From Coriobacteriales bacterium (lineage in GTDB: Bacteria > Actinomycetota > Coriobacteriia > Coriobacteriales > UBA8131), in NCBI GenBank assembly GCA_031288185.1, contig JAITRZ010000033.1:1-47709 (forward strand): a stretch of DNA of 47,709 bases. The letters are read 5' to 3'. Positions within the stretch are counted from its first letter, which is position 1, and each line of letters starts with the position of its first letter. Positions 21,148-47,625 of this stretch are shown one piece after another. The notes under the pieces are model-generated. The model was not told the DNA's origin. It did not search any database and was given only the letters and a program-made list of their open reading frames with translations. A program made the position numbers and the translations under genes.

Positions 21148-23106
21148 GTGGCGCGTTTCAATGACTTCCCTCATCTGTTTGAGCCTTTCGCGATTGGCAA
21201 GATGGAACTAAAGAACCGCTTGGTGTTCGCGCCAGTGGTTTCTGGTCACGCCACGGTGCGAGATGGCGAGGTCACCGAAGGCTTAGTAGACTTTATTGGC
21301 GCCTGCGCGCGTACCGGCGTATCCCGGGTTGGTGTTGGAGCGACACCTGTGGATTTAGGCCGCGCGCGAGATTTTTTTGGCTGCCTAAGCGCTACACGTG
21401 ATACTGATGTGCCCGGAATCCGCAGGCTGGTGGAAGAAGCGCACCGATATGATGCCAAGTTTTCTGTGGAATTGTTACACGCCGGGCGCATCGCCCATCC
21501 TGAGGCTTTAGCTGGCCGTCTGGCCTATGTGCCGTGGTTGGCGCCGGACATGGATCCGGAAAGGGTTTTTCAAATCGGCAAAGCCGAGATGGACGAGATA
21601 ATCGGCTTGTTTGTGGCGGCGGCACGTCGCTTGGCCGAGGCCGGTTGTGATGAAGTGTTGATTCACGGTGCCCATGGTAACCTTATCAGCGGCTTTCTTT
21701 CCCCAGCAACCAACCAGCGCGACGATGAATTTGGTTCATCGCCAGAAAACCGAGCCCGTTTTCCTCTCCAGATACTTAAGGCAGTGCGCGCCGAAGTGGG
21801 CAACTCTTTAAACATTGAGTATCGCATCTCCCAAAACGAATACGCCGCAGGCACAATCAGCTTGGAAGACGTCATTGGTTTTTTGCAAATGGCCAGTGGC
21901 TCTATCGACAGTGCGCATCTTTCTGGGGGCTGGATTTTCGATCCAAACTGGATACGCAAAATGATGCCTTCTTATTGCGAACCGCGCTGTCTAAACGTGG
22001 AACGAGCTGCCCTTATTCATAAGGCTCTGGATATCCCTACCGTGGTTGTAGGTAACATCACCAGCGCAGAGCAGGCCGAGCAGATTCTGGCGCATGGCCA
22101 GGCCTCGTTGGTGGCAATGGCCCGAGCCCATTTGGCCGATCTGGAACTGGTGCGCAAGGTTTACCACGGCCAGCCGGAAAGGGTTCGGCCTTGCCTGCGC
22201 TGCATTGAGTGCGCGGCGCGCCCAGCGATGGGCGGCGGCGTACGCTGTGCGGTGAATCCGGCCTTGGGCAGAGAGAATAAATATGCAGTGCTCACTCCGG
22301 CCGCCAAGCCAAAGAAAATACTGGTAATTGGCGGCGGCCCAGCTGGTATGCAACTGGCCCAAGTGGCCACGGCGCGCGGACACCACGTGAGCCTGTACGA
22401 GCGAGAGGCTAGCTTAGGAGGCAGACTGAAAGAAGCCTCGGTGCTCTTCAAAAAGGCTGATACACATCAAGGCTACTTGCGTTGGAGTGTGCAGGCCACA
22501 TTGGAGTGTGGTGCCCAGATTCACTTGAACAGCACAGTAAATGCGGGTCTGATTGCCGCGGAGAGCCCGGACGTGGTGGTTAATGCCAGCGGCGGCCTGC
22601 ACTACCAACCGCCAATCGACGGCCTGGACTCTGAGAAAGTGGTCAGTATCAGCGATGCCGAGTTGGGACACGCTTTGTTGGGATCGCGGGTGTTAGTGAT
22701 GGGAGGGGGAATTTCTGGTTTAGAGTGCGCAATCCAACTGGCCTATCAAGGTCATCAGGTCACCGTCATTGACCGCTTGCCCACCGAGCGACTCTGGCGC
22801 GAAGTTATGGACGAACTGCGTAGCGGGTTACTGGAACTCAAACAGCAATATGCTGTGGAACTGATAGACAATGCTACCATCACCAGCATCAGCAACGCTG
22901 CCGTAGAATATCGCCAAGGTGACGGAGCGCTCAAAACTGCACTGGCCGACACGTATGTGGCTTCTTTTGGTATTGTCGCCAACAAACAGTTCAATGCCGC
23001 CATGCGCGCAACCATCCCCGATGTCTACACTGTTGGCGATGCCCGTGAGCCACGCAACATTTTTTGGGCCAATATGGATGCCTTCAATTTGGCCGTGGAG
23101 CTGTAG
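21148..23106 (+). CDS. FMN/FAD/[4Fe-4S] ene-reductase, Old Yellow Enzyme family (BaiCD / dienoyl-CoA reductase type)
   Basis: This encodes 652 aa from GTG 21148, chosen for TAGGAGG just upstream. The N-terminal TIM barrel (~1-345) binds FMN: FEPFAIGKMELKNRLVFAP, LLHAGR, HGAHGNLISGFLSPATNQR and DDEFGSSPENRARFP. A Cys cluster CLRCIECAARPAMGGGVRC binds one [4Fe-4S]. Two dinucleotide folds follow: VIGGGPAGMQLAQVA for FAD and VMGGGISGLECA for NAD(P)H. The family reduces C=C bonds next to a carbonyl, as in fatty acid, bile acid and isoflavone metabolism. The substrate cannot be told from sequence. The SDR gene follows, probably co-transcribed. Confidence 0.9.
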   Translation: MARFNDFPHLFEPFAIGKMELKNRLVFAPVVSGHATVRDGEVTEGLVDFIGACARTGVSRVGVGATPVDLGRARDFFGCLSATRDTDVPGIRRLVEEAHRYDAKFSVELLHAGRIAHPEALAGRLAYVPWLAPDMDPERVFQIGKAEMDEIIGLFVAAARRLAEAGCDEVLIHGAHGNLISGFLSPATNQRDDEFGSSPENRARFPLQILKAVRAEVGNSLNIEYRISQNEYAAGTISLEDVIGFLQMASGSIDSAHLSGGWIFDPNWIRKMMPSYCEPRCLNVERAALIHKALDIPTVVVGNITSAEQAEQILAHGQASLVAMARAHLADLELVRKVYHGQPERVRPCLRCIECAARPAMGGGVRCAVNPALGRENKYAVLTPAAKPKKILVIGGGPAGMQLAQVATARGHHVSLYEREASLGGRLKEASVLFKKADTHQGYLRWSVQATLECGAQIHLNSTVNAGLIAAESPDVVVNASGGLHYQPPIDGLDSEKVVSISDAELGHALLGSRVLVMGGGISGLECAIQLAYQGHQVTVIDRLPTERLWREVMDELRSGLLELKQQYAVELIDNATITSISNAAVEYRQGDGALKTALADTYVASFGIVANKQFNAAMRATIPDVYTVGDAREPRNIFWANMDAFNLAVEL

Positions 23107-23263
23107 CCTCAATGCTATCAGGAGCTGGAGCCGCCATGCTATCGTTTCTGTTATTTTCGCTAGATTTTTTAGCTAAAAATGGCGCAAACCTGAAGTCACG
23201 AGGTTGATGGCCTCACATCTATAAGCAATGTGGACCACCGTAAGGCGGCGGATTGGAGGAAAC

Positions 23264-24097
23264 ATGACAGGCAGAATTGAAGGCAAAGTCTGTGTCATCA
23301 CTGGCGCGTCGTCTGGTATAGGCGCGGCCGCAGCGAGGCTTTTTGCTGCTGAAGGCGGCAAGGTGGTGTTAGCGGCGAGACGCGACAAAACCCAAGATGT
23401 TGCAGATGCAATCACCACGGCAGGCGGCGAGGCGATTTTCATTCGCACCGACGTTTTGAACCTGAGCGACATTGACAACGTAATCGCGGGCAGCCTGGAA
23501 GCTTTTGGCCGCATTGACGTTTTCTTTGGTAACGCTGGCGTGGGTAACTTTTTTGCTATTGAGGATATGGATCTGGAGAAGGACTTCTACTGCACCATCG
23601 ACACTTTCATGCGCGCAAATTGGTGGGCGGCCAAACGCTGTTTACCCATCATGGTTAAACAAGGCAAGGGTGACTTTATCTTCACCGCCTCCACCGCAGC
23701 TTACAATGGCGTAGCTATGGGCAGCGTCTACGCCGCCGGCAAGGCAGGTTTACTCTCACTTTCGCGCTCGTTGGCGATGGGCTATGGCAAATACAACATC
23801 CGCTCCAACGTGGTTGTCCCCGGACTCACCACCACCGAGCTTTCGCCGGCCGGTGGAGCCATGGAAAAGATGCAACGGCCCTTCATTCCAATGGGCAGGG
23901 CCGGCACAGCCGAGGAAGTGGCATACGCCGCATTGTTTTTTGCCTCTGACGAGTGTCGCTATGCCACTGGCACCGAACTAATTATCGACGGTGGCGGCGA
24001 CCACCTGGGTGTCCTGTATCCACAGGCGGATGCCGGTGCGATAGACAATGAAGGTTTTAACATTGCTGAGGGTGGCGTCACAAAGACAATAGAATAG
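23264..24097 (+). CDS. Short-chain dehydrogenase/reductase
   Basis: This encodes 277 aa; ATG 23264 follows GGAGG at good spacing. It has the Rossmann motif VCVITGASSGIGAAAA, the NAG motif FFGNAGVG, the catalytic Ser in TASTAAYNG, the YAAGK pair (Tyr-x-x-x-Lys), and a C-terminal IIDGGGD. AARRDK after beta2 suggests preference for NADP(H). An extra ~25-residue tail follows the usual end of the fold. SDRs of this kind interconvert ketones and alcohols. Next to an OYE-type reductase, it may act on the same substrate. Confidence 0.9.
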   Translation: MTGRIEGKVCVITGASSGIGAAAARLFAAEGGKVVLAARRDKTQDVADAITTAGGEAIFIRTDVLNLSDIDNVIAGSLEAFGRIDVFFGNAGVGNFFAIEDMDLEKDFYCTIDTFMRANWWAAKRCLPIMVKQGKGDFIFTASTAAYNGVAMGSVYAAGKAGLLSLSRSLAMGYGKYNIRSNVVVPGLTTTELSPAGGAMEKMQRPFIPMGRAGTAEEVAYAALFFASDECRYATGTELIIDGGGDHLGVLYPQADAGAIDNEGFNIAEGGVTKTIE

Positions 24098-24277: not shown

Positions 24278-26029
24278 CTATTTGCCGGCCAGCTCCTTGC
24301 CTAACACATACGGCAGAGTCACACAAGTGGCTCCGTAATTGATGCCTTCCATCGCAAAGGTGTAGACGCTAGAGTAGAAATTTCCGAGTACCGAACCCAC
24401 AACATACAAGCCCTCTATCGGCTTGTCCTCTGTGTTCAGGGCCTGCAGGTTGGTATTAGCCCGGATGCCACCCAGCGACGTCAGGAACATCGGCGTAAAA
24501 GAGCAACCGTAGTAGGGTGGCTCGTTAATTCCTATCATTTTCTCCGGTTTTTTGTAGAAGTCATCATCATGTCCCTTGGCGCACAGTTGGTTGAAGCGCT
24601 CGACGGTATCGATGGTGGAGGGGGGCAGCCCAAGGTCGGCGATCAAACCTTCGAGGCTGTCATTTTTCTTTACCCCAAACCCATACGCGTCGTCATCCCA
24701 GGTCTTGATAAACTCCTCAGCAGAGGAAAAGTAGACGCCCTGCGCATAGTTGGGCTTTGCCCACGGGCCTCCGTCTGCGGCGCGGTTCTTTCCCCAGATG
24801 CACCAGGCGGTGATGTCTGGCAGGTTCATGATGGTGGCACAGGCAATGCCGCCAAGAACGTCCTCGTTCATAAAGCGTTGGCCATTGGCATCCACCATCA
24901 GGCCGGTATGGGAGGTGTAGGGTTGGTCGGCAGGCAAGTTGGGTCGCCCAAGCATGATGACGTTAGGTGCGCTTTGCCAGGCCGCACCAGCCCAAAGCGC
25001 CATCTTGTGTCCGTCGCCGGGCATCAAGCCGCCCACTTGCAAACCGGCATCGTAGTTGACATCGTTGTCAATCTCCAAGAGCAACGGAAGGGCCTCCGGG
25101 CAGTACCGTGTCATCATGTCCTTGTCGTGGCTAAAGTCGCCCGTAGCCAAGATGACTGCCTTGCTTGCCTTGTAGCGCCGGTACTTTCCCGAAGTCATGT
25201 CAACAGCGATGACGGACACTACTTTGCCGCCCTCTTTTTCGAGTTGTTCTGCCTTGGTCTGCCACACGATGGTGCCGCCCAGATCCTCTACGATAAAGCG
25301 TGCGAGTTCTGCCGCTATATGGGGTTCCCCAGTTCCCACGCCGCCTTCTAGCTCACTATCCTCTTTATAGAAGGCGTGGGCTGCGCCAGGGGTATACATT
25401 GGGTCGTCAACGGTGTATTCCGGCCCGCTTTCGATGGTGCATTTTATGCCAACTTTAGCAGCAATATCAACGAGCCAGTTCATGGCTTCTGCGCTGTTGT
25501 TATAAAACTTATACCAGAAAGCCGGCTTAAAGTTGCCGCCGTTGGCCACGTACTGGTAGCGATAAAAGGGCTCGGGATCGTATTTGGGCAGCCCCATGGC
25601 CTGGGTTATCTTGGTGTCGACACCATGATTGGAACCGCCGCGGCTTACCGCGGCTTTAGAGGCCGACACCACTATGACCTTCAAACCGTTTTCCAAACAG
25701 GACGCAGCACTTACAAGGCCGGACATGCCAGCACCAACAACCACAACGTCCGCCTCCTCTGTGGCCGTAATAGTGCTTTCCGCTATGGGGGCGGGTGGTA
25801 TCTCAAAGCCCCACTGCTGTTCAGCGCTGTTGGTAGCACCAGTCGAGGCTGCAGGGCTGTTGTTGGTTGTGCCAGAACCACTCTGGGACGAACAAGCTCC
25901 CAGTGCCGCAGCCGCACCCACGCCTGCCGCACCCAAGGCGGCCCTCTTCAAAAAACCTCTTCTGTCAATATTCTTGTCCGTAAACGTATCCGTAAACGTA
26001 CCCTCTCCTTTGTTCCTTGCTTCTAGCAT
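24278..26029 (-). CDS. Tat-exported FAD-dependent reductase (flavocytochrome c / fumarate reductase flavoprotein family)
   Basis: This encodes 583 aa with AGGAGAGG before ATG 26029. A twin-arginine signal DRRGFLKRAALGAAG (22-36) ends in LGAC|SS, so the product is probably a Tat lipoprotein on the outer membrane face. The FAD site is VVVVGAGMSGLVSAA. A C-terminal GGIRANTNLQAL and YVVGSVLGNFYSSVYTFAME match the FAD_binding_2 family. There is no haem-binding CXXCH, so electrons must come from another protein. Relatives in Eggerthellaceae reduce C=C bonds or remove oxygen groups from diet or host molecules. The substrate is unknown. It is the last gene of the minus-strand molybdoenzyme run. Confidence 0.9.
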   Translation of the reverse strand: MLEARNKGEGTFTDTFTDKNIDRRGFLKRAALGAAGVGAAAALGACSSQSGSGTTNNSPAASTGATNSAEQQWGFEIPPAPIAESTITATEEADVVVVGAGMSGLVSAASCLENGLKVIVVSASKAAVSRGGSNHGVDTKITQAMGLPKYDPEPFYRYQYVANGGNFKPAFWYKFYNNSAEAMNWLVDIAAKVGIKCTIESGPEYTVDDPMYTPGAAHAFYKEDSELEGGVGTGEPHIAAELARFIVEDLGGTIVWQTKAEQLEKEGGKVVSVIAVDMTSGKYRRYKASKAVILATGDFSHDKDMMTRYCPEALPLLLEIDNDVNYDAGLQVGGLMPGDGHKMALWAGAAWQSAPNVIMLGRPNLPADQPYTSHTGLMVDANGQRFMNEDVLGGIACATIMNLPDITAWCIWGKNRAADGGPWAKPNYAQGVYFSSAEEFIKTWDDDAYGFGVKKNDSLEGLIADLGLPPSTIDTVERFNQLCAKGHDDDFYKKPEKMIGINEPPYYGCSFTPMFLTSLGGIRANTNLQALNTEDKPIEGLYVVGSVLGNFYSSVYTFAMEGINYGATCVTLPYVLGKELAGK

Positions 26030-26062: not shown

Positions 26063-26500
26063 TTACGTAATCTTCACTAATTCTACCCAATATACCAGCG
26101 TTTTACCGGCATAGGGGTGATTGACATCAACCTGAACGAGATCCTGGGTTGTAGCTACAATGCGGCCAGGCAAAACGCTGTTGTCCTGCGGGTTGGCGCA
26201 AGCTAGGGTATCGCCAACCTTAAGTTCCTGCCCACGATAAACCAAAGTGCGTGGATACCACTGTATGCCGTCGGTTCGCGGAAGCCCGTAGCCCTGCTCG
26301 GGAGCTATCTCCACCTCTCGCCTCTCGCCCACTTCCAGCTCATAGAGCAAGTTCTCGATGCCCTTGGGAACACTTCCTTCGCCGATAATCACCGCCAGTG
26401 GCTCACCTTGGGAATGGTCGTCTAAAACGTCCTCACCCTTGGCGCCGCCACGATAGCGGATATGGGCGGTTTTACCAATACGCTCTTGCCGCTTGTCCAT
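26063..26500 (-). CDS. FKBP-type peptidyl-prolyl cis-trans isomerase (SlyD-like)
   Basis: This encodes 145 aa, with GGGAGAG before ATG 26500. FKBP/SlyD features are AHIRYRGGAKGEDVLDD, LAVIIGEGSVPKGIENLLY, LEVGERREVEIAPEQGYG and the C-terminal VDVNHPYAGKTLVYWVELV. An insert-in-flap domain (GIQWYPRT..) is present as in SlyD. The metal-binding His/Cys-rich tail of E. coli SlyD is absent. It is probably a cytoplasmic folding helper for the large cofactor enzymes next to it. A paralogue lies at 36168-36605. Confidence 0.92.
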   Translation of the reverse strand: MDKRQERIGKTAHIRYRGGAKGEDVLDDHSQGEPLAVIIGEGSVPKGIENLLYELEVGERREVEIAPEQGYGLPRTDGIQWYPRTLVYRGQELKVGDTLACANPQDNSVLPGRIVATTQDLVQVDVNHPYAGKTLVYWVELVKIT

Positions 26501-26574: not shown

Positions 26575-27072
26575 CTACTCCTTTGCAGCTTCAGCCTCGT
26601 ATTCGCCCACGCGCGCGTCGTGGCGGTGTGCGCCAAACTCGGCATGGCCATCGCCAACAGCTTGGAGGTGTGCGGCGGTGTGCAGATCAGCCTTGTTTGT
26701 TCTATGCACAAACTCGCCTTTGGCTTGCTTAGGCCGAAATCCCGGCACTATCAACAGCTGCTTAGGCTTGTCCACGAGCTTTTTAGCCAAGTCTTCGATC
26801 TTTCCGTAGTCCAGGATGTTGGCCAGACAGTGGTGGACACAAATCGGCTCGCGTCCCTTGTCTGTACGCTCAACACAAAGGTCACAGAGGTCGGTAGGCA
26901 ACGGATACCAGTTCCAGTTCCACTCGTCGTCGCCAATCTGCCAAGGACCGTCGCTGTGCAACTTGATGCCCCACTGGCCTACTGGGTAGTCATGCTCCTC
27001 TTTGCAGGATACCACGCAAGAGCCACAGTTGGTGCAGAATTCGTAATCGATTAAAAGTCCGTATTCAGCCAT
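26575..27072 (-). CDS. Ferredoxin-like [4Fe-4S] small subunit of molybdopterin oxidoreductase (pair 2)
   Basis: This encodes 165 aa from ATG 27072, just after the large-subunit stop (TGA at 27077-27075); the frame extends upstream into the large gene but the family begins here. It opens MAEYGLLIDYEFCTNCGSC. Cys groups are FCTNCGSCVVSC and LCDLCVERTDKGREPICVHHC, enough for about two [4Fe-4S] clusters. It should pass electrons to the molybdenum subunit. Compared with the other small subunit it has a ~50-residue C-terminal extension rich in His, Ala and Glu, of unknown role. Confidence 0.88.
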   Translation of the reverse strand: MAEYGLLIDYEFCTNCGSCVVSCKEEHDYPVGQWGIKLHSDGPWQIGDDEWNWNWYPLPTDLCDLCVERTDKGREPICVHHCLANILDYGKIEDLAKKLVDKPKQLLIVPGFRPKQAKGEFVHRTNKADLHTAAHLQAVGDGHAEFGAHRHDARVGEYEAEAAKE

Positions 27073-27074
27073 GT

Positions 27075-29444
27075 TCACACCAGCTTTCCAAATTTTTCCC
27101 AGACCAGGTCCATATTGGTATCGTAGTTCTTGGCGACAGGTTCGATATTGCAGATCAGGCACTTACCGGGAGCGCCAAATCCCAGCTTACCCATATGGAA
27201 GTTGGGGATCAGATTGTTAATGTTGGAGCGAAACACACCGTAAAGGTTTGGCTCGTTACCGTCCTCTTCGGGGAACCACCAGGCGTGCTCGGAATGGATG
27301 GTGTTCTCATCGACAATGGGCGAGATATGCGCCTTTTGCACACATTCGCCAAATTGGTTAAAGACGCGCACCCACTGACCCTCCGTGATGTTGAGGCGCT
27401 TGGCTACCTGCGGGTTGATCTCGGTTATCGGGTTGGGATGCAACTCGCGCAGATAGGCTATCTGCCGGTGCTCGGAATGGAAGAAGGCCGAGGTACGGGC
27501 ACCAGTGGTCAAAACAAACGGATACTGCTCCATCAACTCTGGCGTGGTGACTGGCCCAAACTCCGGCTCGGCATAATAGGGTAGGGGGTCTTCGCCAAAC
27601 TGGTTGAAGGCCGTCGACCAGAGCTCAACACGCCCGGTGGGAGTGGCAAAGCCCGGCCCTCCATCGGCCCGGAGCATACCTTTTTCGTATTTGTAGTAGT
27701 CCACGGGAACCTGCGAGACCACCACTTGGGAGATTTTGTCAAAGTAAGCGCCGTGCTCGCGCTTGCCCAGACGAAAGTGCTCGATGAACTCTTTTGAGTT
27801 GGCAAAGCCCTCCTTAGCCCAAAGCTCCGGCCGCAGACGGGTACCCAACTCGTAGACCATTTCCATGTCGGAAAATCCCTCGCCAACCTCGATGGCCTTA
27901 TGCATGAAACCGGCTGTGACGGTGCAGGGAGCATAATGGGTGAAAACCGTACCCTCGCGCTCGGCCACCGTCTTTAACGGTAAAAATATGTCACAGGAGG
28001 CCTCCACAGAAGGATTCATAAAGGTGTCAATGCCAATGCTGAAGTCCATGGTCTTGATGATGGCATCGTGCCAACGCTTGGGTTCCATGGAGGTGCAGGC
28101 CATCAGATTGTTGCCTTGGTACATGCACATCTTTAAGGGGAAGGGGTCACCGGTTTCCAGGGCTTTGAGCATCATGTCGGCCTGAGCGTCTAAAATCATG
28201 TTGCAGTAGGCCGGATACTGATCAATGCCAATCATCTTGGCTTTTAGTTCGCCAACGCCCTCGTCATAACCGTAGCCCAACTCGTTATGGCCGCTACCGG
28301 CTCCGGGCAAGAACTGTCCACCAGGACGATCAAGGTTACCGGTGATGGCTTGCAGAGAGATGATTACCTGGCCGTTTTGCATTCCGTTGGTTTTCTGGTC
28401 AACGGCCAGTCCCCAAAGTAGCCCAGCTGGCTTGGCCTTGGCGTACATGCGAGCGGCGGCGTATATTTTCTCCACCGCAACTCCACAGATTTCAGCAGCT
28501 TTCTCTGGAGGCATCTCGGCCACGCGCTCGGCCAACTCATCAAAGCCATAGCACCAGTATTCAACAAAGTCCTTGTCGTAGAGCCCTTCACTGATAATCA
28601 CGTGCAGCATCGCCATGCCCAAGGCGGTATCAGTGCCGGGACGCAGCTGAAGATGGATGTCAGAGCGAGTGGAAAGCCAGGTAACGCGAGGGTCAATGTT
28701 AATGATGCGGGAGCCGCGGCGCATGGCATCAATGAGCGAGTGGCCAAAAAAGCCGTCTGGATTGGAATCTAGCGGTTGTTTGCCCCACAAAACGATAACC
28801 TCGCTGAGTTCATAGCGCTCATCGTCCCAGCGATCAGGCAAGGCGCCGGCATTGTCCCACTCGGCATAGGTGGCACCCGTTACATACACGGCGGCGGCCA
28901 GGCGCGGGGTATAACAGGCATAACCACTTTGGGTATAGCACTTATTTGGTGTTCCAAAAACCATTGAGCCATAAGGGTTCATAGTGCCGCCCTCACGACC
29001 GGTTCCCGAGAAGATAGCAATGCTCTCGCGCCCGTATTCGGCAACGATTCGGTCGTACTCTTTTTTGATGATGTCAAAAGCCTCGTCCCAGGTAATGCGC
29101 TGCCATTTGTCGGCCTTGCCGCGATCTTCGCGATGGCGTTTCATGGGATGCAGGATGCGTGCTGGGTTGTAAACGTAGTCCTTCAAAGCGATGCAGCGCG
29201 GACATAGACGCCCTTGGGTAACGGGGTGGTTCTCATCTCCCTCTACTTTTTGCAGGCGCCCGTCAGCATCGACATAAAGCTTCAGGCCGCAACCTACCGG
29301 GTGGCAACCGGGTGGCGACCAGGGGCAGGTGCGGGTCACGGTATAGCCGTCATCTTGATAGCGCCAATCCTTGCCCAAGTCATTGACCTCGGACAATGTA
29401 GGCAGAGGAATCGCCTTTGCCTTCTTGTAATAATCGTCGGACAT
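27075..29444 (-). CDS. Molybdopterin oxidoreductase large subunit (pair 2), catechol-dehydroxylase-like
   Basis: This encodes 789 aa. ATG 29444 has GGAG 5 bases upstream; a GTG 6 bases earlier touches the ribosome site. Cys40, Cys47 and Cys52 (TCPWSPPGCHPVGCG) with Cys81/Cys84 (GRLCPRC) should bind a [4Fe-4S] cluster. Molybdopterin-domain motifs follow: WQRITWDEAFDII, SGTGREGG, IINIDPR, LRPGTDTALGMAM, and a C-terminal dinucleotide-binding domain (LTTGARTS, INPQVAKRLNI). There is no Tat signal, so it is cytoplasmic. It belongs to the bis-MGD family, and its architecture with a small Fe-S partner and MFS recalls gut-bacterial catechol dehydroxylases and pyrogallol transhydroxylase. This is similarity by pattern, not proof of substrate. 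Confidence 0.88.
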   Translation of the reverse strand: MSDDYYKKAKAIPLPTLSEVNDLGKDWRYQDDGYTVTRTCPWSPPGCHPVGCGLKLYVDADGRLQKVEGDENHPVTQGRLCPRCIALKDYVYNPARILHPMKRHREDRGKADKWQRITWDEAFDIIKKEYDRIVAEYGRESIAIFSGTGREGGTMNPYGSMVFGTPNKCYTQSGYACYTPRLAAAVYVTGATYAEWDNAGALPDRWDDERYELSEVIVLWGKQPLDSNPDGFFGHSLIDAMRRGSRIINIDPRVTWLSTRSDIHLQLRPGTDTALGMAMLHVIISEGLYDKDFVEYWCYGFDELAERVAEMPPEKAAEICGVAVEKIYAAARMYAKAKPAGLLWGLAVDQKTNGMQNGQVIISLQAITGNLDRPGGQFLPGAGSGHNELGYGYDEGVGELKAKMIGIDQYPAYCNMILDAQADMMLKALETGDPFPLKMCMYQGNNLMACTSMEPKRWHDAIIKTMDFSIGIDTFMNPSVEASCDIFLPLKTVAEREGTVFTHYAPCTVTAGFMHKAIEVGEGFSDMEMVYELGTRLRPELWAKEGFANSKEFIEHFRLGKREHGAYFDKISQVVVSQVPVDYYKYEKGMLRADGGPGFATPTGRVELWSTAFNQFGEDPLPYYAEPEFGPVTTPELMEQYPFVLTTGARTSAFFHSEHRQIAYLRELHPNPITEINPQVAKRLNITEGQWVRVFNQFGECVQKAHISPIVDENTIHSEHAWWFPEEDGNEPNLYGVFRSNINNLIPNFHMGKLGFGAPGKCLICNIEPVAKNYDTNMDLVWEKFGKLV

Positions 29445-29553
29445 TTTCACTCCTTCTAGTGTGGTTCTTTTGGGTGGATCTGGATTTCCGGGAGTTTTTA
29501 TGGGGCGGCGCCAATTAGCTAAAATGCCCCAGTTGACGCCGCCAACAGCCTGT

Positions 29554-30852
29554 TTACTTCAGTTTGCGCAAACCGATGAACAGGATAACGATACAGATGA
29601 TGTAAGAGGGAACCAGTACCAGCCAAGATGCCTGTGCCCAGCCCAGCGACATCACGGCGTTGCCCATGGCCACCGCACCAATCAACATGCCCAGGTTCTG
29701 GGAGCAGGCTACGGTGGCGTTGGCCGAAGGAATTTGGTCGGGCTTAACAGTATCGGGTATGGAACCCCAGATAACGGAAGGTACGCCACCGCCAGCTATG
29801 CCGCCAAAGACCACGATGATGTAAAAGGGCCAGATGCTTTCGTTGGTGGCACCAAGTATGTTGGTAAAGACTGTGGCGGTAAAGAGAACGCCTCCAATCA
29901 AGCCGGCAAAAAGCACCCATTTCTTGGTCTTGAGCAGATCGGTAAGCCAGCCAAACAACGGTGCCATCAAAGCTCCAAGGATCGCTGCCGCCGAAGCCAG
30001 CAGAGTGGCATCCAACATGTTTAGTGTTATCGGTGCCTCTACGCCACCGCCACCGGTAAGATAGGTGGTGAACAAGCCGTTGATGGCCATAAAGGCCAGC
30101 TCGTCCACCAAGAAAATCAAGGCTAGTGCGATCAGCAGCGGATTGGTGAAAATGCCCTTCCAATCTATCTTAGTGTCATATCCTTTGGCATCTTCGGACG
30201 TGTCCTCGCCATATAGATTGACTTTAGCGTCGCGGTATAAAACGTTGAAAAGAATCACAACTACAATATCAAAGATGAAGTTTCCCCACCAAACCTGCTG
30301 CACGGTTAACAGGCTTATCTCATAGGAAGCCTCCATAGGGTTTAAGATGCCATTGGCATCGGACACCGCCCCGTAAATGATGGGACAAACGCACATCGCC
30401 AAGGCCACCCAGGTAGCCCAGATACCTAAAGGCAGGCCACGCTTAGTCTTAGGAAACCAAGGGGCGATGGCCGAGGGGCCGGCTACGCCCATGATGCCAA
30501 AGGCCGCGCCTTCAAAGACGCGGCTAATCAAAAAGATATTGAAGTCCACAAACATGGCGCCAAGAAAAGAACCGATCGCCCCGCAGATGACCATGGCAGT
30601 GATTACTCCACGCAAGCCAAACTTCTTGACCAAACCAGCGCCAGGGAAGGCTAATAGAAAGCCGAGCAGAAAAAACAGGGCAACTACCAGACCCGTGATT
30701 CCCACATCATAGTGGTAGACGTTAGCGACAACCGGCGCCAGTGCGGTGACCTTGGCCATGTTGGCGCCCGGCGTCAGGCCACTAAGGTAAACAACCAGCA
30801 GCACGATCCAGCCATAGGCGGCTTGCTTAACTGGCTTTGCTATATTCTCCAT
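29554..30852 (-). CDS. MFS transporter
   Basis: This encodes 432 aa, with AGGAGG before ATG 30852. Twelve hydrophobic segments are visible, with MFS features between helices 2 and 3 (GAGLVKKFGLRG) and between 8 and 9 (LFGWLTDLLKTKKW). A charged central loop (YRDAKVNLYGEDTSEDAKGYDTK region) separates the two halves. It lies between the two molybdoenzyme pairs on the same strand, so it probably carries their substrate or product. It is only distantly like the two MFS paralogs further along, which are longer and of another subgroup. Confidence 0.9.
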   Translation of the reverse strand: MENIAKPVKQAAYGWIVLLVVYLSGLTPGANMAKVTALAPVVANVYHYDVGITGLVVALFFLLGFLLAFPGAGLVKKFGLRGVITAMVICGAIGSFLGAMFVDFNIFLISRVFEGAAFGIMGVAGPSAIAPWFPKTKRGLPLGIWATWVALAMCVCPIIYGAVSDANGILNPMEASYEISLLTVQQVWWGNFIFDIVVVILFNVLYRDAKVNLYGEDTSEDAKGYDTKIDWKGIFTNPLLIALALIFLVDELAFMAINGLFTTYLTGGGGVEAPITLNMLDATLLASAAAILGALMAPLFGWLTDLLKTKKWVLFAGLIGGVLFTATVFTNILGATNESIWPFYIIVVFGGIAGGGVPSVIWGSIPDTVKPDQIPSANATVACSQNLGMLIGAVAMGNAVMSLGWAQASWLVLVPSYIICIVILFIGLRKLK

Positions 30853-31014
30853 GACAACCTCCTAAAGTAGTTTTGAGCGTAAAATTTGTTAGGTAGTTCC
30901 ACTGCAGCGGGTTCTCCCACCTGGCAAGATGGCCAAGCTGCCAGGCTTGCCAGGCTTCCCGTATGTGTTGTTTTGCATCACCTTCTCCAAAGACGCCCTA
31001 ATCTTCCACAAGAA

Positions 31015-31365
31015 CTACTGAGCATAACGGTAGGTCTTAGGAACAAAAAGCACCTGGTCAGGTTTTTTCTCTAGTTGCTTAGCCAGCTCTTCGACGCTTC
31101 CGTATTGCATCACGCCGGCCAGGCAGTGATGCACACAAGACGGCTGCTTGCCTTGTTGGGTGCGTTGCTCACAAAGGTCGCAAAGCCGCGTGGGTACCGG
31201 TATTTTGTTCCAGTTAAAACGGCCGTCAGCGCACTCCCAAGGCCCATCGTCTAACAAATGAATGCCCCATTGCCCAACGGGGATGGAATGTTCTTCTTTG
31301 CAGGCGACCTCACAGCTTTGGCATCCGGTGCAAAATTCATAGTCAATCAAAAGTCCATAAGCCAT
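31015..31365 (-). CDS. Ferredoxin-like [4Fe-4S] small subunit of molybdopterin oxidoreductase (pair 1)
   Basis: This encodes 116 aa, starting at ATG 31365 within TAATG, so its start overlaps the large-subunit stop and translation is probably coupled. Cys groups FCTGCQSCEVAC and LCDLCEQRTQQGKQPSCVHHC fit two [4Fe-4S] clusters. It closely follows the pattern of the pair-2 small subunit (YGLLIDYEFCT, VGQWGI, CVHHCLA) but lacks its C-terminal extension. It should relay electrons to the molybdenum subunit. Confidence 0.9.
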   Translation of the reverse strand: MAYGLLIDYEFCTGCQSCEVACKEEHSIPVGQWGIHLLDDGPWECADGRFNWNKIPVPTRLCDLCEQRTQQGKQPSCVHHCLAGVMQYGSVEELAKQLEKKPDQVLFVPKTYRYAQ

Positions 31366-33698
31366 TATTGAATCACCAACTTTCCAAATCGCTCCCAAAC
31401 CTTTTTTAGGTTGGTATCCCAGTTCTTTTCGCTGGGGGAAACTTTGCAAAGTATGCACTTGAAAGGTGCGCCAAAGCCCAGCTTGCCGATGTAGCGATGC
31501 GGAATAAGCTCGTTGATGTTTGAGCGCCAGACTTCAAACAACGACGGTTCCTCAGAGTCCGTCTCAGGGAACCAAAACCCGTGCTGAGCGTGAACAACAC
31601 CCGGTTTGACTATCTGGGAAACCTTGGCCTTTAGCACGATTTTTCCAAAGGGATTTTCTACCTCTACCCATTGACCGTCAGTGATGCCGTATGTTTGGGC
31701 GTCGGTGGGATTGATTTCAATCAGGGGATCCGGGTTCATTTCGCGCAGGTAAGGGATCTGCTTTCCCTCGGAGTGGAAATAGCAGTAGGTACGCGCGCCG
31801 GTAGTCAAAACCAAGGGAAACTGCTCGTACAAATCGGGAGTCGATATCGGACTGAGCTGTGGCTCCTCGTAATAGGGCAACGGATCCTCACCAAACTGCT
31901 GAAACATCGTTGAGTAGAGCTCGACGCGGCCAGTTGGAGTGTTGAAGCCGGGCCCTCCGTCCGGACGCAGCTTGCCAGTTTCATATTTCTTATAGCTTAG
32001 CGTCTCGATCTTTTGGTGTACGACCTCGTCACGTAATTCCTCAAAAGTTTCCTTGTATCCCAGGCGGTAGTCAGCAAGAAAATCGTAGTAGTCCTTGTAC
32101 TTCTCAAAATTGATGGGCATACAGCGCAGGCCCAATTCATACATGATTTCACAGTCACCCTTGGTGTCTCCAACCGTAATACATTTATTAACGGCTCCGG
32201 CCATTATCGGCGACGCGCCATAGTGGGTGTAAACAACCGTGTCGTGTTCAACGGTGGTTGAAAGCGGCAAGAACACTTCGCAGGTTGCCTGGATTGTTGG
32301 GGTAATCCAAACGTCGATGCCAAAGCACCATTCCAGATTTTTAGCCATAGCGTCATGCCAGCGCTTGGGCTGGGCCGAGCAGGTTCCCGCCAGAAGGTTG
32401 GTGTCCTCAAAAGCGCCCATCTTAAAGGCGTAGGGTTTACCAGTTTCCAGGGCATCAAGAACCATGTCGCATTGAGCATTGAGCACTAAGCCAACATAGG
32501 CGGGATACTCGCGAATACCCATAATCTTGGATTGCAGCTCCGGACCCAGATTGTTCCAGCCAAAGCCCAGTTCCAGGCCGTCGTTGATGTCGCCAATTAG
32601 TTGGCCTCCAGGAACATCAACATTGCCGGTGATTGCCTGCAGGGCCAAAATGCAATGGCCGGTCTGAACGCCGTTAGACTTTTGGTCGACGGCCAGACCC
32701 CAGGCGATTTGTGCTGGTTTGGCCTTAGCATAGGCGCGGGAAGCCTCGCGAATCAGGTCGGCATCCACGCCGGTGATTTCTGCCGCCTTTTCCACCGGCA
32801 TTTCCTTAACGCGTTCCGCCAATTCCGCAAAGCCATACGTCCACTTGTCCACGAAATCTTTGTCGTAAAGCTCTTCGCTGATAATTACGTTCAGCATCGC
32901 CATGGCTAAGGCTGTGTCGGTGCCGGGACGCAATCGTAGATGCCAGTCTGCACGGGTGGCTGCCCAGTTGGTGCGAGGGTCGACGGACATCAGCTTGGTG
33001 CCTCGACGCATCATATCGATGGCAGCGTGTCCAAACAGCCCGTCGCCGTTGGAAGGAAGTGGTTCCTTGCCCCAAAAAACAATCAGTTCTGGCAACTTGA
33101 ACATCGGGTCGTCATAGCGTCCGTGCAGGCCACCGGCATAGTCCATCTCAGGATAAGTCGCGCCCAAAACGTAGGTTGTGCCGGCCACACGCGGAATGTA
33201 ACAAGAATAGCCAGACTGTGTATAGCAAGCGTTGGGCGTTCCCAGACAGGCATGAGCGTAAGCGGGTAACATTGGGCCGCCCTCGCGACCGGTACCCCCC
33301 ATAATTAAGATGGACTCGGCGCCGTAAGTCTCTTTGTAGTAGGCCACCTTCTTAGCAATTAAATCATAGGCTTCATCCCAACTGATCCGTTCCCACTTGT
33401 CTTTGCCACGATCCTCCCTGGCCCGCTTCATGGGGTAACGGATGCGGTCAGGATGATAAACGTAGTCGCGCATCGTCAGGCAGCGCACGCAAAGTCTCCC
33501 GTTGGTGATGGGGTGGTTCTCATCACCCTCAATTTTAACCAGCTCTCCTTTCTCGTTCGTGTAGACCTTGATACCACAGCCTACGGGGTGGCACCCGGGC
33601 GGAGACCAGGCGCAACCACGGGTAACCGTCAGCCCGTCCTCTTCATAGCGCCACGGCTTGCCTAGGTCTTTTGTTCCCTGTCCTTCGAACAACTTCAT
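31365..33698 (-). CDS. Molybdopterin oxidoreductase large subunit (pair 1), catechol-dehydroxylase-like
   Basis: This encodes 777 aa, with GGAGG before ATG 33698. Cys29, Cys36 and Cys41 (RGCAWSPPGCHPVGCG) plus Cys70/Cys73 (GRLCVRC) form the Fe-S site. Further motifs are WERISWDEAYDLI, MGGTGREGG, MSVDPRTNW, LRPGTDTALAMAM and LTTGARTYCYFHSE. It is cytoplasmic, without a Tat signal. It is clearly paralogous to the pair-2 large subunit, keeping the same motifs but differing widely elsewhere, so the two may act on different substrates. It is the first gene of the long minus-strand run down to 24278. Confidence 0.88.
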   Translation of the reverse strand: MKLFEGQGTKDLGKPWRYEEDGLTVTRGCAWSPPGCHPVGCGIKVYTNEKGELVKIEGDENHPITNGRLCVRCLTMRDYVYHPDRIRYPMKRAREDRGKDKWERISWDEAYDLIAKKVAYYKETYGAESILIMGGTGREGGPMLPAYAHACLGTPNACYTQSGYSCYIPRVAGTTYVLGATYPEMDYAGGLHGRYDDPMFKLPELIVFWGKEPLPSNGDGLFGHAAIDMMRRGTKLMSVDPRTNWAATRADWHLRLRPGTDTALAMAMLNVIISEELYDKDFVDKWTYGFAELAERVKEMPVEKAAEITGVDADLIREASRAYAKAKPAQIAWGLAVDQKSNGVQTGHCILALQAITGNVDVPGGQLIGDINDGLELGFGWNNLGPELQSKIMGIREYPAYVGLVLNAQCDMVLDALETGKPYAFKMGAFEDTNLLAGTCSAQPKRWHDAMAKNLEWCFGIDVWITPTIQATCEVFLPLSTTVEHDTVVYTHYGASPIMAGAVNKCITVGDTKGDCEIMYELGLRCMPINFEKYKDYYDFLADYRLGYKETFEELRDEVVHQKIETLSYKKYETGKLRPDGGPGFNTPTGRVELYSTMFQQFGEDPLPYYEEPQLSPISTPDLYEQFPLVLTTGARTYCYFHSEGKQIPYLREMNPDPLIEINPTDAQTYGITDGQWVEVENPFGKIVLKAKVSQIVKPGVVHAQHGFWFPETDSEEPSLFEVWRSNINELIPHRYIGKLGFGAPFKCILCKVSPSEKNWDTNLKKVWERFGKLVIQ

Positions 33699-34325: not shown

Positions 34326-35705
34326 TCACCTAAGTTTAGTGGCGGCAAAGACCAAGGTTCCAACGATGCCAATAATCATGAGAATCATTCCGGCAAAAAA
34401 CCAGTCGGTTAGTGTGGGGCCTAGCAGTATCTGCACCAGCGCAGTACCCAGGAACTGCCCGGCGCTTTGCACCAGCAGCATCACACCCATGCCCATTGGC
34501 ACATATTCCGGCCCAGGCAACAGGTCAATGAGCGCGGCCATTGAGACACCAATGCCGCCCATCCCAACCAGCCCCATCACAAAAACCGCGATCCACATGC
34601 CTATGCCGTTGTTGGTATAGAGAACGAAGGTGCAGGGTCCCATGACCAAAAAAGACAGCATGAGCAGGGGCTTACGGCGACCGGTCTTGTCTGATAGAAC
34701 CCCAAACAGTGGCGAGGATATGATGGCCAGCAGCATGGGTGCCGTGGATATAAAGCCGGCTAGCGTGGCGTTAAATCCTTGACCTATGAGGCGCGTGGGC
34801 ACAAAGGCCAAGACCGCAAGCAAGCAAATTTGCAGCGCCGTAAAGCCCGCAAAAAACAGAAAGGTGTTCTGCGTAATGAGCGCGCGATAGTGCAGCTGCT
34901 TTTGCTGTTGGGGCACTTGGGACACCTGGGATGCTTGGGATGCTTGGGATGCTTGGGATGCTGGCACATGGTCGCTCATTGGCTGGTCGTCTGGGGCTGG
35001 CTCCGTTCCTTTGATTGTCTTGGGCAGGTGGATCACTATCATCAACACCATCGCAGCCAGGAGCATTAGTGCGGCATAGATTAACCAAATTCCGGCAAAG
35101 CCAAACTGTTCAAGCAAGGTGGGCGTGATGACGCCGGCAAGTGTTGATCCTAACGAGCCCCAAAGCCCCCAAATGCCCATTGCTGATCCGATGTTGCGGG
35201 GACTCACACAACGCTGGATTAGGATTGGGCCGGTGGTAGTGACTATGGTTAAGGCCACTCCCTCTATGGCCCTGGACAGTATCAGTACCCATCCCACTTG
35301 CGCCAATATGCCAATGACAGAGCCCAGCGCTACAAACAGCGCGGCTATCAGCATTGGTTTTTTGGGTCCTAGGCGCCGCGCCAGGCCGCCAGCAGGCAAA
35401 GAGACAAACACGCCGACTAGGGTAAATATGGACATCAACCAGGACGCTTCGTTTGCGTTCATGGTAAAAATATCCATGATTTTGGTCATAATCGTAGGGA
35501 TTTTGTATTGCACCATGGCAACAGAAATGCCTACCAGGAGGGTAACGATACCTACCAGCAGATAGTTTTGATAGTGGATCTGGTTGGAGCCTTGCTGTTT
35601 CCCTGAGCCTGGTTTTGTTGTGGTTGACGCGCTTGGTTGGTTGGTCACTTGGATACCAGAACGTTTTGGTTGAGAGAAGTGTTGGTTGGGTTTTGAACGG
35701 GACAC
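34326..35705 (-). CDS. MFS transporter, paralogue 1
   Basis: This encodes 459 aa from GTG 35705. AGAAAGG followed by 11 bases precedes it, the same layout as before the ATG of paralogue 2; a longer frame from a TTG at 35762 is possible. About 50 polar residues come first, then 12 TM segments with GGLARRLGPKKPM (helix 2-3 loop) and GVLSDKTGRRKPLL. The central loop has a low-complexity QASQASQASQVSQV tract from tandem CTTGGGATG-type repeats (~34930-34965). The closest relative in the window is 40131-41675. It probably transports a small organic molecule for the island. Confidence 0.88.
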   Translation of the reverse strand: MSRSKPNQHFSQPKRSGIQVTNQPSASTTTKPGSGKQQGSNQIHYQNYLLVGIVTLLVGISVAMVQYKIPTIMTKIMDIFTMNANEASWLMSIFTLVGVFVSLPAGGLARRLGPKKPMLIAALFVALGSVIGILAQVGWVLILSRAIEGVALTIVTTTGPILIQRCVSPRNIGSAMGIWGLWGSLGSTLAGVITPTLLEQFGFAGIWLIYAALMLLAAMVLMIVIHLPKTIKGTEPAPDDQPMSDHVPASQASQASQASQVSQVPQQQKQLHYRALITQNTFLFFAGFTALQICLLAVLAFVPTRLIGQGFNATLAGFISTAPMLLAIISSPLFGVLSDKTGRRKPLLMLSFLVMGPCTFVLYTNNGIGMWIAVFVMGLVGMGGIGVSMAALIDLLPGPEYVPMGMGVMLLVQSAGQFLGTALVQILLGPTLTDWFFAGMILMIIGIVGTLVFAATKLR

Positions 35706-35767
35706 GCTTTTTGGGACCTTTCTGTAGGATATATTCCTTATATCCCACACTAGGTCAAACAACCATC

Positions 35768-35970: not shown

Positions 35971-36177
35971 ATGACAGACGACAAAAAAGATATTCAAGCT
36001 GGGCAATCCCCCAAAAAAGAAGCCGAGCAGTCAGAGAAGTTGGAAGATAAAGACATCAAGGCTCCGGTTAGCGCCATATGCGACAACGCACAGGCCAACG
36101 CTGCCGCCCTAGCTGACGAAGACGACGAGATTAAGCCAGTGGAGGGATTTTTCTTGACGTCGCAAAGATGGCACTAG
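35971..36177 (+). CDS. Small acidic protein upstream of the FKBP gene
   Basis: This encodes 68 aa with AGGAGG 6 bases before ATG 35971. It is hydrophilic and rich in Lys, Asp and Glu (MTDDKKDIQ..KKEAEQSEKLEDKDIK), with no hydrophobic segment; the tail reads VEGFFLTSQRWH. Its last 10 bases (ATGGCACTAG) overlap the start of the FKBP gene, so the two are probably translationally coupled. No family recognised. Confidence 0.55.
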   Translation: MTDDKKDIQAGQSPKKEAEQSEKLEDKDIKAPVSAICDNAQANAAALADEDDEIKPVEGFFLTSQRWH

Positions 36178-36605
36178 ACTGTGCAGCAAAAGTGGCGACT
36201 GTCAGCTTTCTTTATAAGGGCCGTCTTGAAGACGGAGAAGTGTTTGACGACGGCGAGCACGATGCGCACACCATAATGCTGGGGCGCTCTCAGGTGATGC
36301 CGGTATTGGAGCGGGAACTTATCCAGATGCAAGTTGGTGAGGAGCGCACTGTTAGTATTGCCGCCGAGGACGCTTATGGTCTTTATTCGCAAGACGCGAT
36401 AGTGCGGGTGCCGGTCTACAAAATTCCCGATGGCGATAAAATGCCGGTGGGCGAGACGATTCTTTGGCGCTCGCCTCGCAGTCATAAGCCGGTTCCTGCG
36501 AAAGTAAAATCTGTTATCAACCAGGTTGCCGAACTGGATTTCAACCACCCCTTGGCGGGTCAAAATATCGTCTATTGGGTCAAAGTGGTCGACAAGCAAA
36601 ACTAG
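36168..36605 (+). CDS. FKBP-type peptidyl-prolyl cis-trans isomerase (SlyD-like), second copy
   Basis: This encodes 145 aa, starting at ATG 36168 inside the preceding gene. Features are ATVSFLYKGRLEDGEVFDD, IMLGRSQVMPVLERELI, QVGEERTVSIAAEDAYG and the C-terminal LDFNHPLAGQNIVYWVKVV. It has the same architecture and length as the FKBP at 26063-26500 but is quite diverged. No metal-binding tail is present. It converges with the LuxR gene, overlapping by 4 bases. It is probably a cytoplasmic folding factor. Confidence 0.9.
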   Translation: MALDCAAKVATVSFLYKGRLEDGEVFDDGEHDAHTIMLGRSQVMPVLERELIQMQVGEERTVSIAAEDAYGLYSQDAIVRVPVYKIPDGDKMPVGETILWRSPRSHKPVPAKVKSVINQVAELDFNHPLAGQNIVYWVKVVDKQN

Positions 36606-38170
36606 AACTTTGTTTTGGATTTTGTGGTGCCTCTTTGTTTAACGGGAGCTTCTTTTTGGCCGCTGCCGCCATCCTTACTGGGGGTTTCTGCGTCTTGGTT
36701 GTCTAATGGTTCTTGTTCAATGATGTCAAGCATATCTTGGCGAGAATGTACCTCGAGCTTGCGATATAAGTTGTAGATGTGTGTTTTGGCTGTGGCACGA
36801 GAAATCGCAAAGTAGTCTGTGATGTATTTTATCCCCCTTCCTTTAGCAAGAAGTCGCATCACTTCTATTTGGCGCGGCGAGAGTTTATTGCGACTGGCCA
36901 CTTTGTTTAGTTTCGCGGTCCAAATTCCGCCGCCACCTTTATTTTGTTCGCTTTGCTTTACTGCGTTGTTATCTTCTTCGATGGCATCATCATCTGCCAA
37001 ATTGCTATCGCAAAACGGATAGCTTTGGTTTTCAATAAACACTTGCAAAACAATAAACGTAAGCGCGGCGATTACACAGGTGGCCGTGAGCAGCTGCGTG
37101 ACCTCGAGCCTTAAGCTATATAAAAATCCTATCTCACCAACCAAAATTCCTAAAAGATACAGTGTTCCTTGACGTCCGACTATCAAATAAGGAGAAATTG
37201 ACTTGAGAAGCGCGGTTTCCACTATGGCATCGATTAAGATGATGGTGTTAGGAGCAACCGTAAGCAATAAAAGGCAAACGCAGATCATCTGACCTGGCGT
37301 ATTAAAAAACGGATACAGCAGCAAAGCGCAAGACATAAAAACGGCCAAGGTACGGCGCGCCAGATGTTCAAAAACCTTGGGGTATCGCTCGCGAAACAAC
37401 AGTGTCACCAAACTGGCTAAAACTGTCACTCCGCCCAAGATAAGGGTTGTAGTGCGCTGTTCGAACTGTATCGTACCAGATAAAACCAAGGTTATGCCCA
37501 TGGCCAGCCCTAGAGCAATAATAGTGAAATTATTGCTATTGCTATTAACGAGGTGCTGGAGTGAGGTTGCTCTTCTAATTGGTCGTGACTGGTTGTGTTG
37601 GCCCAAATGCGCATCGTGGTTGATTAAAAAATCACTGAGGCTGGAAATTAAAGCTACTGCCATCATTAAAAACATAATTTGATTAATACTGAGATCTAGG
37701 GTGAATGTGAGAAACGCTCCTGTTATTACAGCGGCGATTGCTGTGATCAGAAGTAAGGTGCGGTGGGGCTGATTTATAAGGTGGTTTGCCCAGAGTAAAA
37801 CCAGGGCTGTTATCCAAAGTGCCGTCAGCGGCGCAAATATCAGATTAAAACCGCTTAAAACTAAAGCTATTTGACTTAGGATTCCAACTAGGGCACAAAT
37901 TCTGATGACGGTGCTGCCGAGCTGTTTTATTAAAAAGTCATTGCAGCGCGATGCTAATAGAAGTATGAGAATGACCAGTGCCAGAACTAAAACGGATAAA
38001 CTTTGCTGTTGCGGCTCTTGGCTGGTTTTAACAAAAAACAACGTTATTGCGATTAGTGCAGCAGAAAATCCAAGGTATGTGCTTATGGTAGTAAAAGTGG
38101 CTTGTTGCTCTGTTGTGTGCGCCTGATATGGTGGTTTTTGCGGCTTTTGTACACCTATGATTGGCATCAT
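36602..38170 (-). CDS. Membrane-anchored LuxR-family regulator 1
   Basis: This encodes 522 aa. About twelve hydrophobic segments fill residues ~25-390, followed by an acidic linker and a LuxR-type HTH at ~425-490: LSPRQIEVMRLLAKGRGIKY, then FAISRATAKTHIYNLYRKL and EVHSRQDMLDIIE. The membrane half probably senses a ligand, and the HTH binds DNA while tethered. Such multi-TM LuxR proteins are abundant in Eggerthellaceae next to molybdoenzyme or flavoprotein genes. A Lys/Ser-rich tail ends the protein. It lies 36 bases after LuxR 2 on the same strand, so the two are likely one operon. Confidence 0.9.
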   Translation of the reverse strand: MMPIIGVQKPQKPPYQAHTTEQQATFTTISTYLGFSAALIAITLFFVKTSQEPQQQSLSVLVLALVILILLLASRCNDFLIKQLGSTVIRICALVGILSQIALVLSGFNLIFAPLTALWITALVLLWANHLINQPHRTLLLITAIAAVITGAFLTFTLDLSINQIMFLMMAVALISSLSDFLINHDAHLGQHNQSRPIRRATSLQHLVNSNSNNFTIIALGLAMGITLVLSGTIQFEQRTTTLILGGVTVLASLVTLLFRERYPKVFEHLARRTLAVFMSCALLLYPFFNTPGQMICVCLLLLTVAPNTIILIDAIVETALLKSISPYLIVGRQGTLYLLGILVGEIGFLYSLRLEVTQLLTATCVIAALTFIVLQVFIENQSYPFCDSNLADDDAIEEDNNAVKQSEQNKGGGGIWTAKLNKVASRNKLSPRQIEVMRLLAKGRGIKYITDYFAISRATAKTHIYNLYRKLEVHSRQDMLDIIEQEPLDNQDAETPSKDGGSGQKEAPVKQRGTTKSKTKF

Positions 38171-44035: not shown

Positions 44036-44056
44036 CTTACTTATTCCTCTCACTTA

Positions 44057-47562: not shown

Positions 47563-47625
47563 GCCACTCCTTCCGTTGACTGCCTCCATTATATCATATC
47601 CATTAGCATGCACGATGCAAAATAC

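Follow-up and report, generated by a model that had tools for sequence, protein, structure and literature searches.

Gene content and layout of the locus

The stretch of DNA analysed here (the window: 47,709 nucleotides, positions 1 to 47,709 of contig JAITRZ010000033.1 in assembly GCA_031288185.1 of a Coriobacteriales bacterium) carries on its minus strand, between positions 26575 and 33698, two paralogous pairs of genes for a molybdopterin-binding catalytic subunit and a small iron-sulphur subunit, which are transcribed in the order DH_B, FeS_B, MFS1, DH_A, FeS_A and most probably encode two cytoplasmic catechol dehydroxylases. The parts of the locus, with lengths in amino acids (aa), are as follows:

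31365..33698, minus strand: DH_B, catalytic bis(molybdopterin guanine dinucleotide) (bis-MGD) molybdopterin subunit, 777 aa, homologue of cytoplasmic catechol dehydroxylases (Pfam, PDB search, trees)
31015..31365, minus strand: FeS_B, two-cluster 4Fe-4S electron-transfer subunit, 116 aa (Fer4_2, cysteine pattern, junction)
29554..30852, minus strand: MFS1, major facilitator superfamily (MFS) transporter between both pairs (PF07690, 2.7e-36)
27075..29444, minus strand: DH_A, catalytic bis-MGD molybdopterin subunit, 789 aa (Pfam, PDB search, AlphaFold2 model)
26575..27072, minus strand: FeS_A, two-cluster 4Fe-4S electron-transfer subunit, 165 aa (Pfam, cysteine pattern, junction)
26063..26500, minus strand: FKBP1, SlyD-like FKBP-type prolyl isomerase, third gene after DH_A-FeS_A (PF00254; SlyD 2kr7, 1.1e-16)

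Both large subunits, which are 57% identical over 774 aligned aa, contain the Pfam domains Molybdopterin, Molydop_binding and Molybdop_Fe4S4, and the transporter contains MFS_1. The Pfam Fer4 matches in FeS_A and FeS_B are weak; each protein possesses eight cysteines in two 4Fe-4S patterns. The ATG of FeS_B overlaps the stop codon of DH_B (TAATG), while that of FeS_A lies 2 nt past the stop of DH_A (TGAACATG); the upstream GTG starts given for the two ferredoxins in the list of open reading frames (27162, 31458) were judged not likely. For DH_A, where the same list has a GTG at 29450, the start is an ATG following AAGGAG. Neither DH_A nor DH_B displays a twin-arginine translocation (Tat) motif or a hydrophobic segment, including at the N-terminus; long molybdopterin enzymes encoded at other sites in this genome do have the motif. 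A preliminary description of this DNA, which had reported two paralogous pairs with a transporter between them, large subunits lacking Tat signals and a two-cluster ferredoxin overlapping or abutting each of them, is therefore well founded.

Family, fold and genomic context

Among solved structures, the closest relative by sequence is acetylene hydratase (PDB search; 6.7e-74 for DH_A and 1.6e-82 for DH_B), and the AlphaFold2 model of DH_A (pLDDT 89.5, pTM 0.91) is also closest in fold to this enzyme (2e7z; Foldseek TM scores 0.82/0.88, root-mean-square deviation 3.0). As acetylene hydratase is likewise the nearest published relative of catechol dehydroxylases (PMC7028382), this match in sequence and fold supports membership of that family. 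The metal-ligand cysteine is common to both, but an identity with acetylene hydratase itself was rejected, since its Asp13, next to cluster Cys12, is replaced by an invariant His (187/187); furthermore, DH_A and DH_B have a ferredoxin partner. Pyrogallol-phloroglucinol transhydroxylase (4v4c) was set aside too, scoring 4.8e-12 and a TM of 0.70 against 6.7e-74 and 0.82 for acetylene hydratase.

In the published description, catechol dehydroxylases of the Gordonibacter subtype are small cytoplasmic enzymes accompanied by a small 4Fe-4S partner and neighbouring MFS genes (PMC7028382), and they often occur with multi-span membrane LuxR-type regulators (PMC9734109). The likeness to gut-bacterial catechol dehydroxylases claimed in the preliminary description holds in precisely these respects: the large subunits of 789 and 777 aa fall within the range of about 750-830 aa, a small 4Fe-4S subunit is adjacent to each, and MFS and membrane LuxR genes are nearby, with two LuxR and two further MFS genes lying upstream of DH_B together with a second FKBP gene:

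34326..35762, minus strand: MFS2, transporter upstream of DH_B, start codon uncertain (best match TIGR00895, aromatic acid symporter, below cut-off)
36168..36605, plus strand: FKBP2, second SlyD-like FKBP, divergent (PF00254)
36602..38170, minus strand: LuxR1, multi-span membrane LuxR-type regulator (C-terminal GerE; about 9 hydrophobic segments)
38207..39730, minus strand: LuxR2, multi-span membrane LuxR-type regulator (C-terminal GerE; at least 7 long hydrophobic segments)
40131..41675, minus strand: MFS3, transporter, probably of the same island

With the Gordonibacter-type enzymes (Dodh, (-)-Eddh/Cldh, (+)-Eldh1/2, Gp Hcdh, Gs Vadh and Eadh1-3), DH_A and DH_B share the lack of Tat, a catalytic subunit of 740-830 aa, the small 4Fe-4S partner, MFS and LuxR neighbours, the clade and the invariant residues; they differ in forming separate well-supported subclades, and in the SlyD-like FKBP gene that follows DH_A. 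The Eggerthella-type enzymes (Dadh, Cadh, El Hcdh), for which the same chemistry is expected, are instead Tat-exported, longer (1193 aa in El Hcdh), and provided with a membrane anchor and a TorD-like chaperone. Membership of this type was rejected, as DH_A and DH_B are without a Tat signal and the Tat-type rows of their own genome fall in the tree outgroup.

Placement among characterised enzymes

Dehydroxylases were gathered from G. pamelaeae 7-10-1-b, Gordonibacter sp. 28C and Ellagibacter isourolithinifaciens, and characterised enzymes were recognised among them with the help of primers, locus tags, identity values and gene contexts from the literature. This located Dodh, Eldh1/2, Eadh, probable Hcdh, Vadh and Eddh, that is, most characterised Gordonibacter-type enzymes; Hcdh, Vadh and Eddh were assigned from length, distribution and context rather than from sequence records. 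Dodh is row L192, which both published dodh quantitative PCR primers (PMC7028382) match with zero mismatches. (+)-Eldh1/2, reported to be co-localised and 74% identical (PMC11887054), correspond to the tandem L121/L130 (74.1% identity, 773 aa), and the eam enzymes to L185/L168/L170, adjoining a PF04909 decarboxylase homologue. The probable Gp Hcdh (L191/L157/L113) fits the published 770 aa and the occurrence in Ellagibacter, which lacks DH_A and DH_B although it has this enzyme. Vadh is L154:3238-5649, followed as in the published layout by an FeS gene, two symporter-type carriers and a LysR gene; L160 was discarded as a candidate because LysR is absent nearby. Judged from its proximity to Eldh, L105 is presumably (-)-Eddh. 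As all of these map to other rows, DH_A and DH_B were rejected as Dodh, Eldh1/2, eam enzymes, Vadh, Gp Hcdh or Eddh.

Trees were computed from 112 rows and then from 45 rows with a mixture model, using acetylene hydratase, Tat-type, Psr-like and formate dehydrogenase-like outgroups. DH_A, DH_B and all located reference enzymes form one clade (100/99 versus the outgroups), so that the proposed affiliation withstands phylogeny, both large subunits lying inside the Gordonibacter-type catechol dehydroxylases and outside formate dehydrogenases. Each falls in a well-supported subclade of its own, and in both trees these two subclades are free of reference rows. They are nested in a 27-row half of the clade (100/100) that also contains probable Hcdh and Vadh, both acting on catecholic phenylalkanoic acids; the other half comprises the Dodh, Eldh, Eddh and eam rows.

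Active-site residues and cluster cysteines

Across an alignment of 189 family members, Cys179 is invariant (189/189) and aligns with Cys141, the tungsten ligand of acetylene hydratase; Arg152, His658 and Glu660 are likewise invariant. His50, found in all 187 rows having a letter there, occupies the place of the catalytic Asp13 of acetylene hydratase (PMC12096430 for both Cys141 and Asp13), a match made because it directly follows the cluster cysteine.

The pattern C49-x4-C54-x28-C83-x2-C86 is kept in 168, 183, 183 and 174 of the 189 rows, respectively. The earlier-noted C-x6-C-x4-C with WSPPGCHPVGCG does occur in both large subunits, but its first cysteine, C42, is kept in just 56/189 members and hence does not belong to a defining motif; the defining cysteines are C49, C54, C83 and C86. 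A review described the cluster motif as absent from Gordonibacter enzymes (PMC11574389); judged from the alignment, most members possess the residues for a putative non-canonical cluster site. All four cluster cysteines are lost in the probable Gp Hcdh rows L113, L157 and L191.

Thirteen rows have Asp at position 49, 11 of them with Cys at 42, while L003 of the own genome, one of the remaining two, has its Cys one position later. This Asp-for-first-Cys subclass (WSPPGDHPVGC), usually with a Cys seven residues earlier, includes L003 (own genome, contig C52), L035, L036, L037, L039, L040, L043, L061, L116, L127 and L193, and may possibly represent a swap of cluster ligand. As in the probable Gp Hcdh rows, all four cluster cysteines are lost in Slackia L046:7019-9310.

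A conserved two-pair locus

Gene neighbourhoods of relatives were scanned with tblastn. Orthologues with 85-92% identity in G026 and G007, which represent two other genera of the family, have the window's order DH_B-FeS_B-MFS1-DH_A-FeS_A. The same gene set is found in G. pamelaeae 7-10-1-b (NC_021021, about 3,473,600-3,485,700) and Gordonibacter sp. 28C (contig C12, about 60,000-72,000) in the order FKBP2(divergent)-MFS2-LuxR-MFS1-DH_B-FeS_B-DH_A-FeS_A-FKBP1, where MFS1 precedes DH_B instead of lying between the pairs and a single LuxR gene replaces the two of the window. Identities to these Gordonibacter loci are 86% for DH_B, 86-87% for FeS_B, 73% for DH_A, 67% for FeS_A, 49-50% for FKBP1 and 46-51% for MFS2; by row, DH_B is 86% identical to G. 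pamelaeae L102 and DH_A 73-76% to Gordonibacter L112/L024. In L195 and L196, MFS1 has orthologues at the corresponding position (72% and 88%), and FKBP2 is kept beside the locus in Gordonibacter and G026. The uncultured Coriobacteriia L025/L026 and L029, the latter from goat rectum, encode DH_B at 85% and DH_A at 70-72% identity, with further DH_B-like copies in L025 and L029. Thus, across seven assemblies that represent several genera, DH_B and DH_A lie side by side in the same orientation and usually have an MFS gene next to them. The two-pair locus, conserved in G026, G007, G. pamelaeae, Gordonibacter sp. 28C, L025/L026 and L029, is an old, uncharacterised unit.

That the pair is kept together in seven assemblies argues for a functional link, as in Eldh1/2 and Eadh1/2, which act on two positions of one molecule. 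The eam cluster with Eadh1/Eadh2 and the tandem (+)-Eldh1/2 are alike in having two dehydroxylases per locus, an MFS gene and a regulator, but their enzymes belong to subclades other than those of DH_A and DH_B, and the window has no PF04909 decarboxylase gene. A role in ellagic acid metabolism was rejected, no decarboxylase gene being seen in the island and the sole PF04909 match of the genome lying on another contig. Published isofunctional cut-offs are 72-75% identity or higher, and at least 75% for most enzymes (PMC11887054). Because its 86% exceeds them, DH_B probably takes the same substrate in Gordonibacter; DH_A, at 73%, is just under the cut-off of at least 75%.

A SlyD-like FKBP companion

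FKBP1 matches SlyD/16-kDa FKBPs, which combine the FKBP fold with an inserted domain, over nearly its full length (2kr7, 2m2a, 4dt4). A SlyD-like FKBP gene lies directly downstream and on the same strand in 18/20 DH_A-clade genes with enough flank, as compared with 2/102 other dehydroxylases and 0/8 DH_B-clade genes; the arrangement persists to 60% identity, the orthologues not being independent samples. It also occurs in lone DH_A-FeS-FKBP copies without an adjacent DH_B (L024, L027, L028, L086). Five of the seven FKBP genes of G. pamelaeae are at most 5 kb from a dehydroxylase, a region making up 7.7% of the genome (p about 5e-5, with genes taken as independent, which their clustering violates). 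In the window, FKBP1 and FKBP2 bracket the dehydroxylase pairs, the downstream FKBP1 being the near-constant companion of the DH_A clade.

A literature search returned nothing relevant linking FKBP or prolyl isomerases with catechol dehydroxylases. FKBP1 may act in the maturation of DH_A, and the association points to one conceivable explanation for the difficulty of expressing such enzymes in other hosts. Going further, we tentatively propose, while regarding it as rather unlikely in its entirety, that a dedicated cytoplasmic SlyD-like FKBP is the maturation chaperone of DH_A-clade enzymes, a role filled by the TorD-like DadhF and further accessory proteins for exported Eggerthella enzymes, and that the locus performs a two-step dehydroxylation of a plant phenolic common to insect, ruminant and human gut Coriobacteriia.

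Proposed function and alternative explanations

Gene content and layout, family, residue conservation, predicted fold and conserved pairing are directly observed, and on this basis we are confident that DH_A-FeS_A and DH_B-FeS_B are two cytoplasmic two-subunit bis-MGD (Mo) catechol dehydroxylases of Gordonibacter type. Very probably, both take a hydroxyl off plant-derived catechols in an animal-gut bacterium. From the same observations we infer the metal, electron flow, regulation, chemistry and substrate in the following scheme. A catecholic polyphenol would enter via one of the MFS carriers and be sensed by a membrane LuxR protein, which would switch the locus on. Electrons from a cytoplasmic donor would first reach the small subunit with its two 4Fe-4S clusters and then, probably by way of a cluster that C49/C54/C83/C86 in the large subunit would bind, a Mo centre coordinated by two pterins and by the invariant Cys179. 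There, Mo(IV) would take off a single hydroxyl, which in known cases is the para one, and His50, being invariant, would be the likely proton donor; the meta-phenol product would be exported, and the reduction would serve as an electron sink, an energy role reported for other members (PMC7028382, PMC11585353). Among related catechols, DH_A and DH_B could differ in the position attacked, in the stereoisomer accepted, or in which of two successive intermediates they take. Our best guess at the substrate is catecholic phenylalkanoic acids, and a weak one, because the other half of the clade contains Dodh, likewise an enzyme with a phenolic acid as substrate.

Several points weigh against this assignment. 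DH_A and DH_B are 38-47% identical to the Dodh, Eldh, eam and probable Hcdh rows, the highest value among the reference rows compared (47.4%, probable Gp Hcdh, L191) falling below the isofunctional cut-offs for any characterised enzyme, and their nearest relatives, in Gordonibacter, are themselves uncharacterised. Metal, activity and induction are deduced for the whole DH_A/DH_B clade, and some of the wider family may catalyse other reactions. The family name could accordingly be right and the activity wrong, if members of this clade used the Mo centre for a different related reaction such as pyrogallol/gallate dehydroxylation, hydroxyl transfer or non-catechol dehydroxylation: known substrates cover few branches only, corticoids lacking a catechol are dehydroxylated by a related Mo enzyme (PMC11574389), and DH_A and DH_B match no characterised enzyme. 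We consider this unlikely, as every characterised member in both main branches (probable Hcdh and Vadh; Dodh, Eldh and Eadh) acts on catechols, and the active-site residues of DH_A and DH_B are the shared family ones. Far less probable still is a formate dehydrogenase or other respiratory enzyme of the DMSO-reductase family. Although Fdh-alpha (TIGR01591) is the top NCBIfam name for both proteins, its scores of 262.5 and 271.9 bits are far under the cut-off of 666.25, on which ground membership was rejected; acetylene hydratase is a better match than any formate dehydrogenase by sequence (6.7e-74 versus 4.6e-52) and by fold (TM 0.82 versus 0.72), and the tree separates formate dehydrogenases.

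A further alternative bears only on the idea of a pathway pair: the two enzymes may serve unrelated substrates and be adjacent merely through the clustering of dehydroxylase genes, since G. pamelaeae carries more than 10 such genes within about 70 kb and the lone DH_A-FeS-FKBP copies do exist. The adjacency of DH_B and DH_A across the seven assemblies speaks against it, and we judge it somewhat short of an even chance. DH_A and DH_B represent a known kind of enzyme, in a conserved two-enzyme locus with a chaperone-like FKBP neighbour of which the literature search gave no report. Most gut catechol dehydroxylases are without a known substrate (121/126 clusters; PMC11585353). The whole locus spans uncultured animal-gut Coriobacteriia, one congener of the window genome deriving from the termite Neotermes meruensis (Nm470), to cultured and genetically tractable Gordonibacter, including human gut Gordonibacter, and being conserved there its substrate should be findable in that genus; the invariant C179, H50, R152, H658 and E660 are targets for mutagenesis to address the mechanism.

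Neighbouring genes and genomic setting

Three further genes lie beside the locus:

24278..26029, minus strand: Tat-type FAD reductase (FAD_binding_2), distant to the vinyl phenol reductase VprA
21064..23106, plus strand: old yellow enzyme (OYE)-type FMN enoate reductase, BaiCD/bilirubin-reductase-like, below cut-offs
23228..24097, plus strand: short-chain dehydrogenase/reductase (SDR) adjoining the OYE gene

The FAD reductase possibly functions in the same catabolism. The OYE and SDR pair (window 21064-24097) recurs at L028:77-3003 in a termite-gut congener, adjoining a DH_A orthologue (75% and 77% identical, respectively), and might carry out an upstream step on the same phenolic. The genome itself (G000), a 1.81 Mb metagenome-assembled genome, encodes six Gordonibacter-type dehydroxylases alongside a number of long Tat-type molybdopterin enzymes, which is many for a genome of this size.

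The locus and these neighbours form part of a 21-kb polyphenol-type island (window 20747-42233) that splits dnaA (42233-44053) from dnaN (19506-20747). The two are neighbours in family relatives where both are on one contig, and the order in four inspected relatives is kinase-like gene-dnaA-dnaN-recF-dciA; in the window, these genes border the island on either side with order and orientation kept. The island could have arisen by insertion close to the replication origin or by misassembly; a chimeric contig is possible but would need a break exactly at the dnaA/dnaN junction. Upstream of the kinase-like gene and dnaA, five DnaA-box-like sites at 45107-45502 probably mark oriC; a similar cluster occupies the same place in L211 of the same genus, and a DDE transposase gene (45832-47613) lies beside the cluster in the window.

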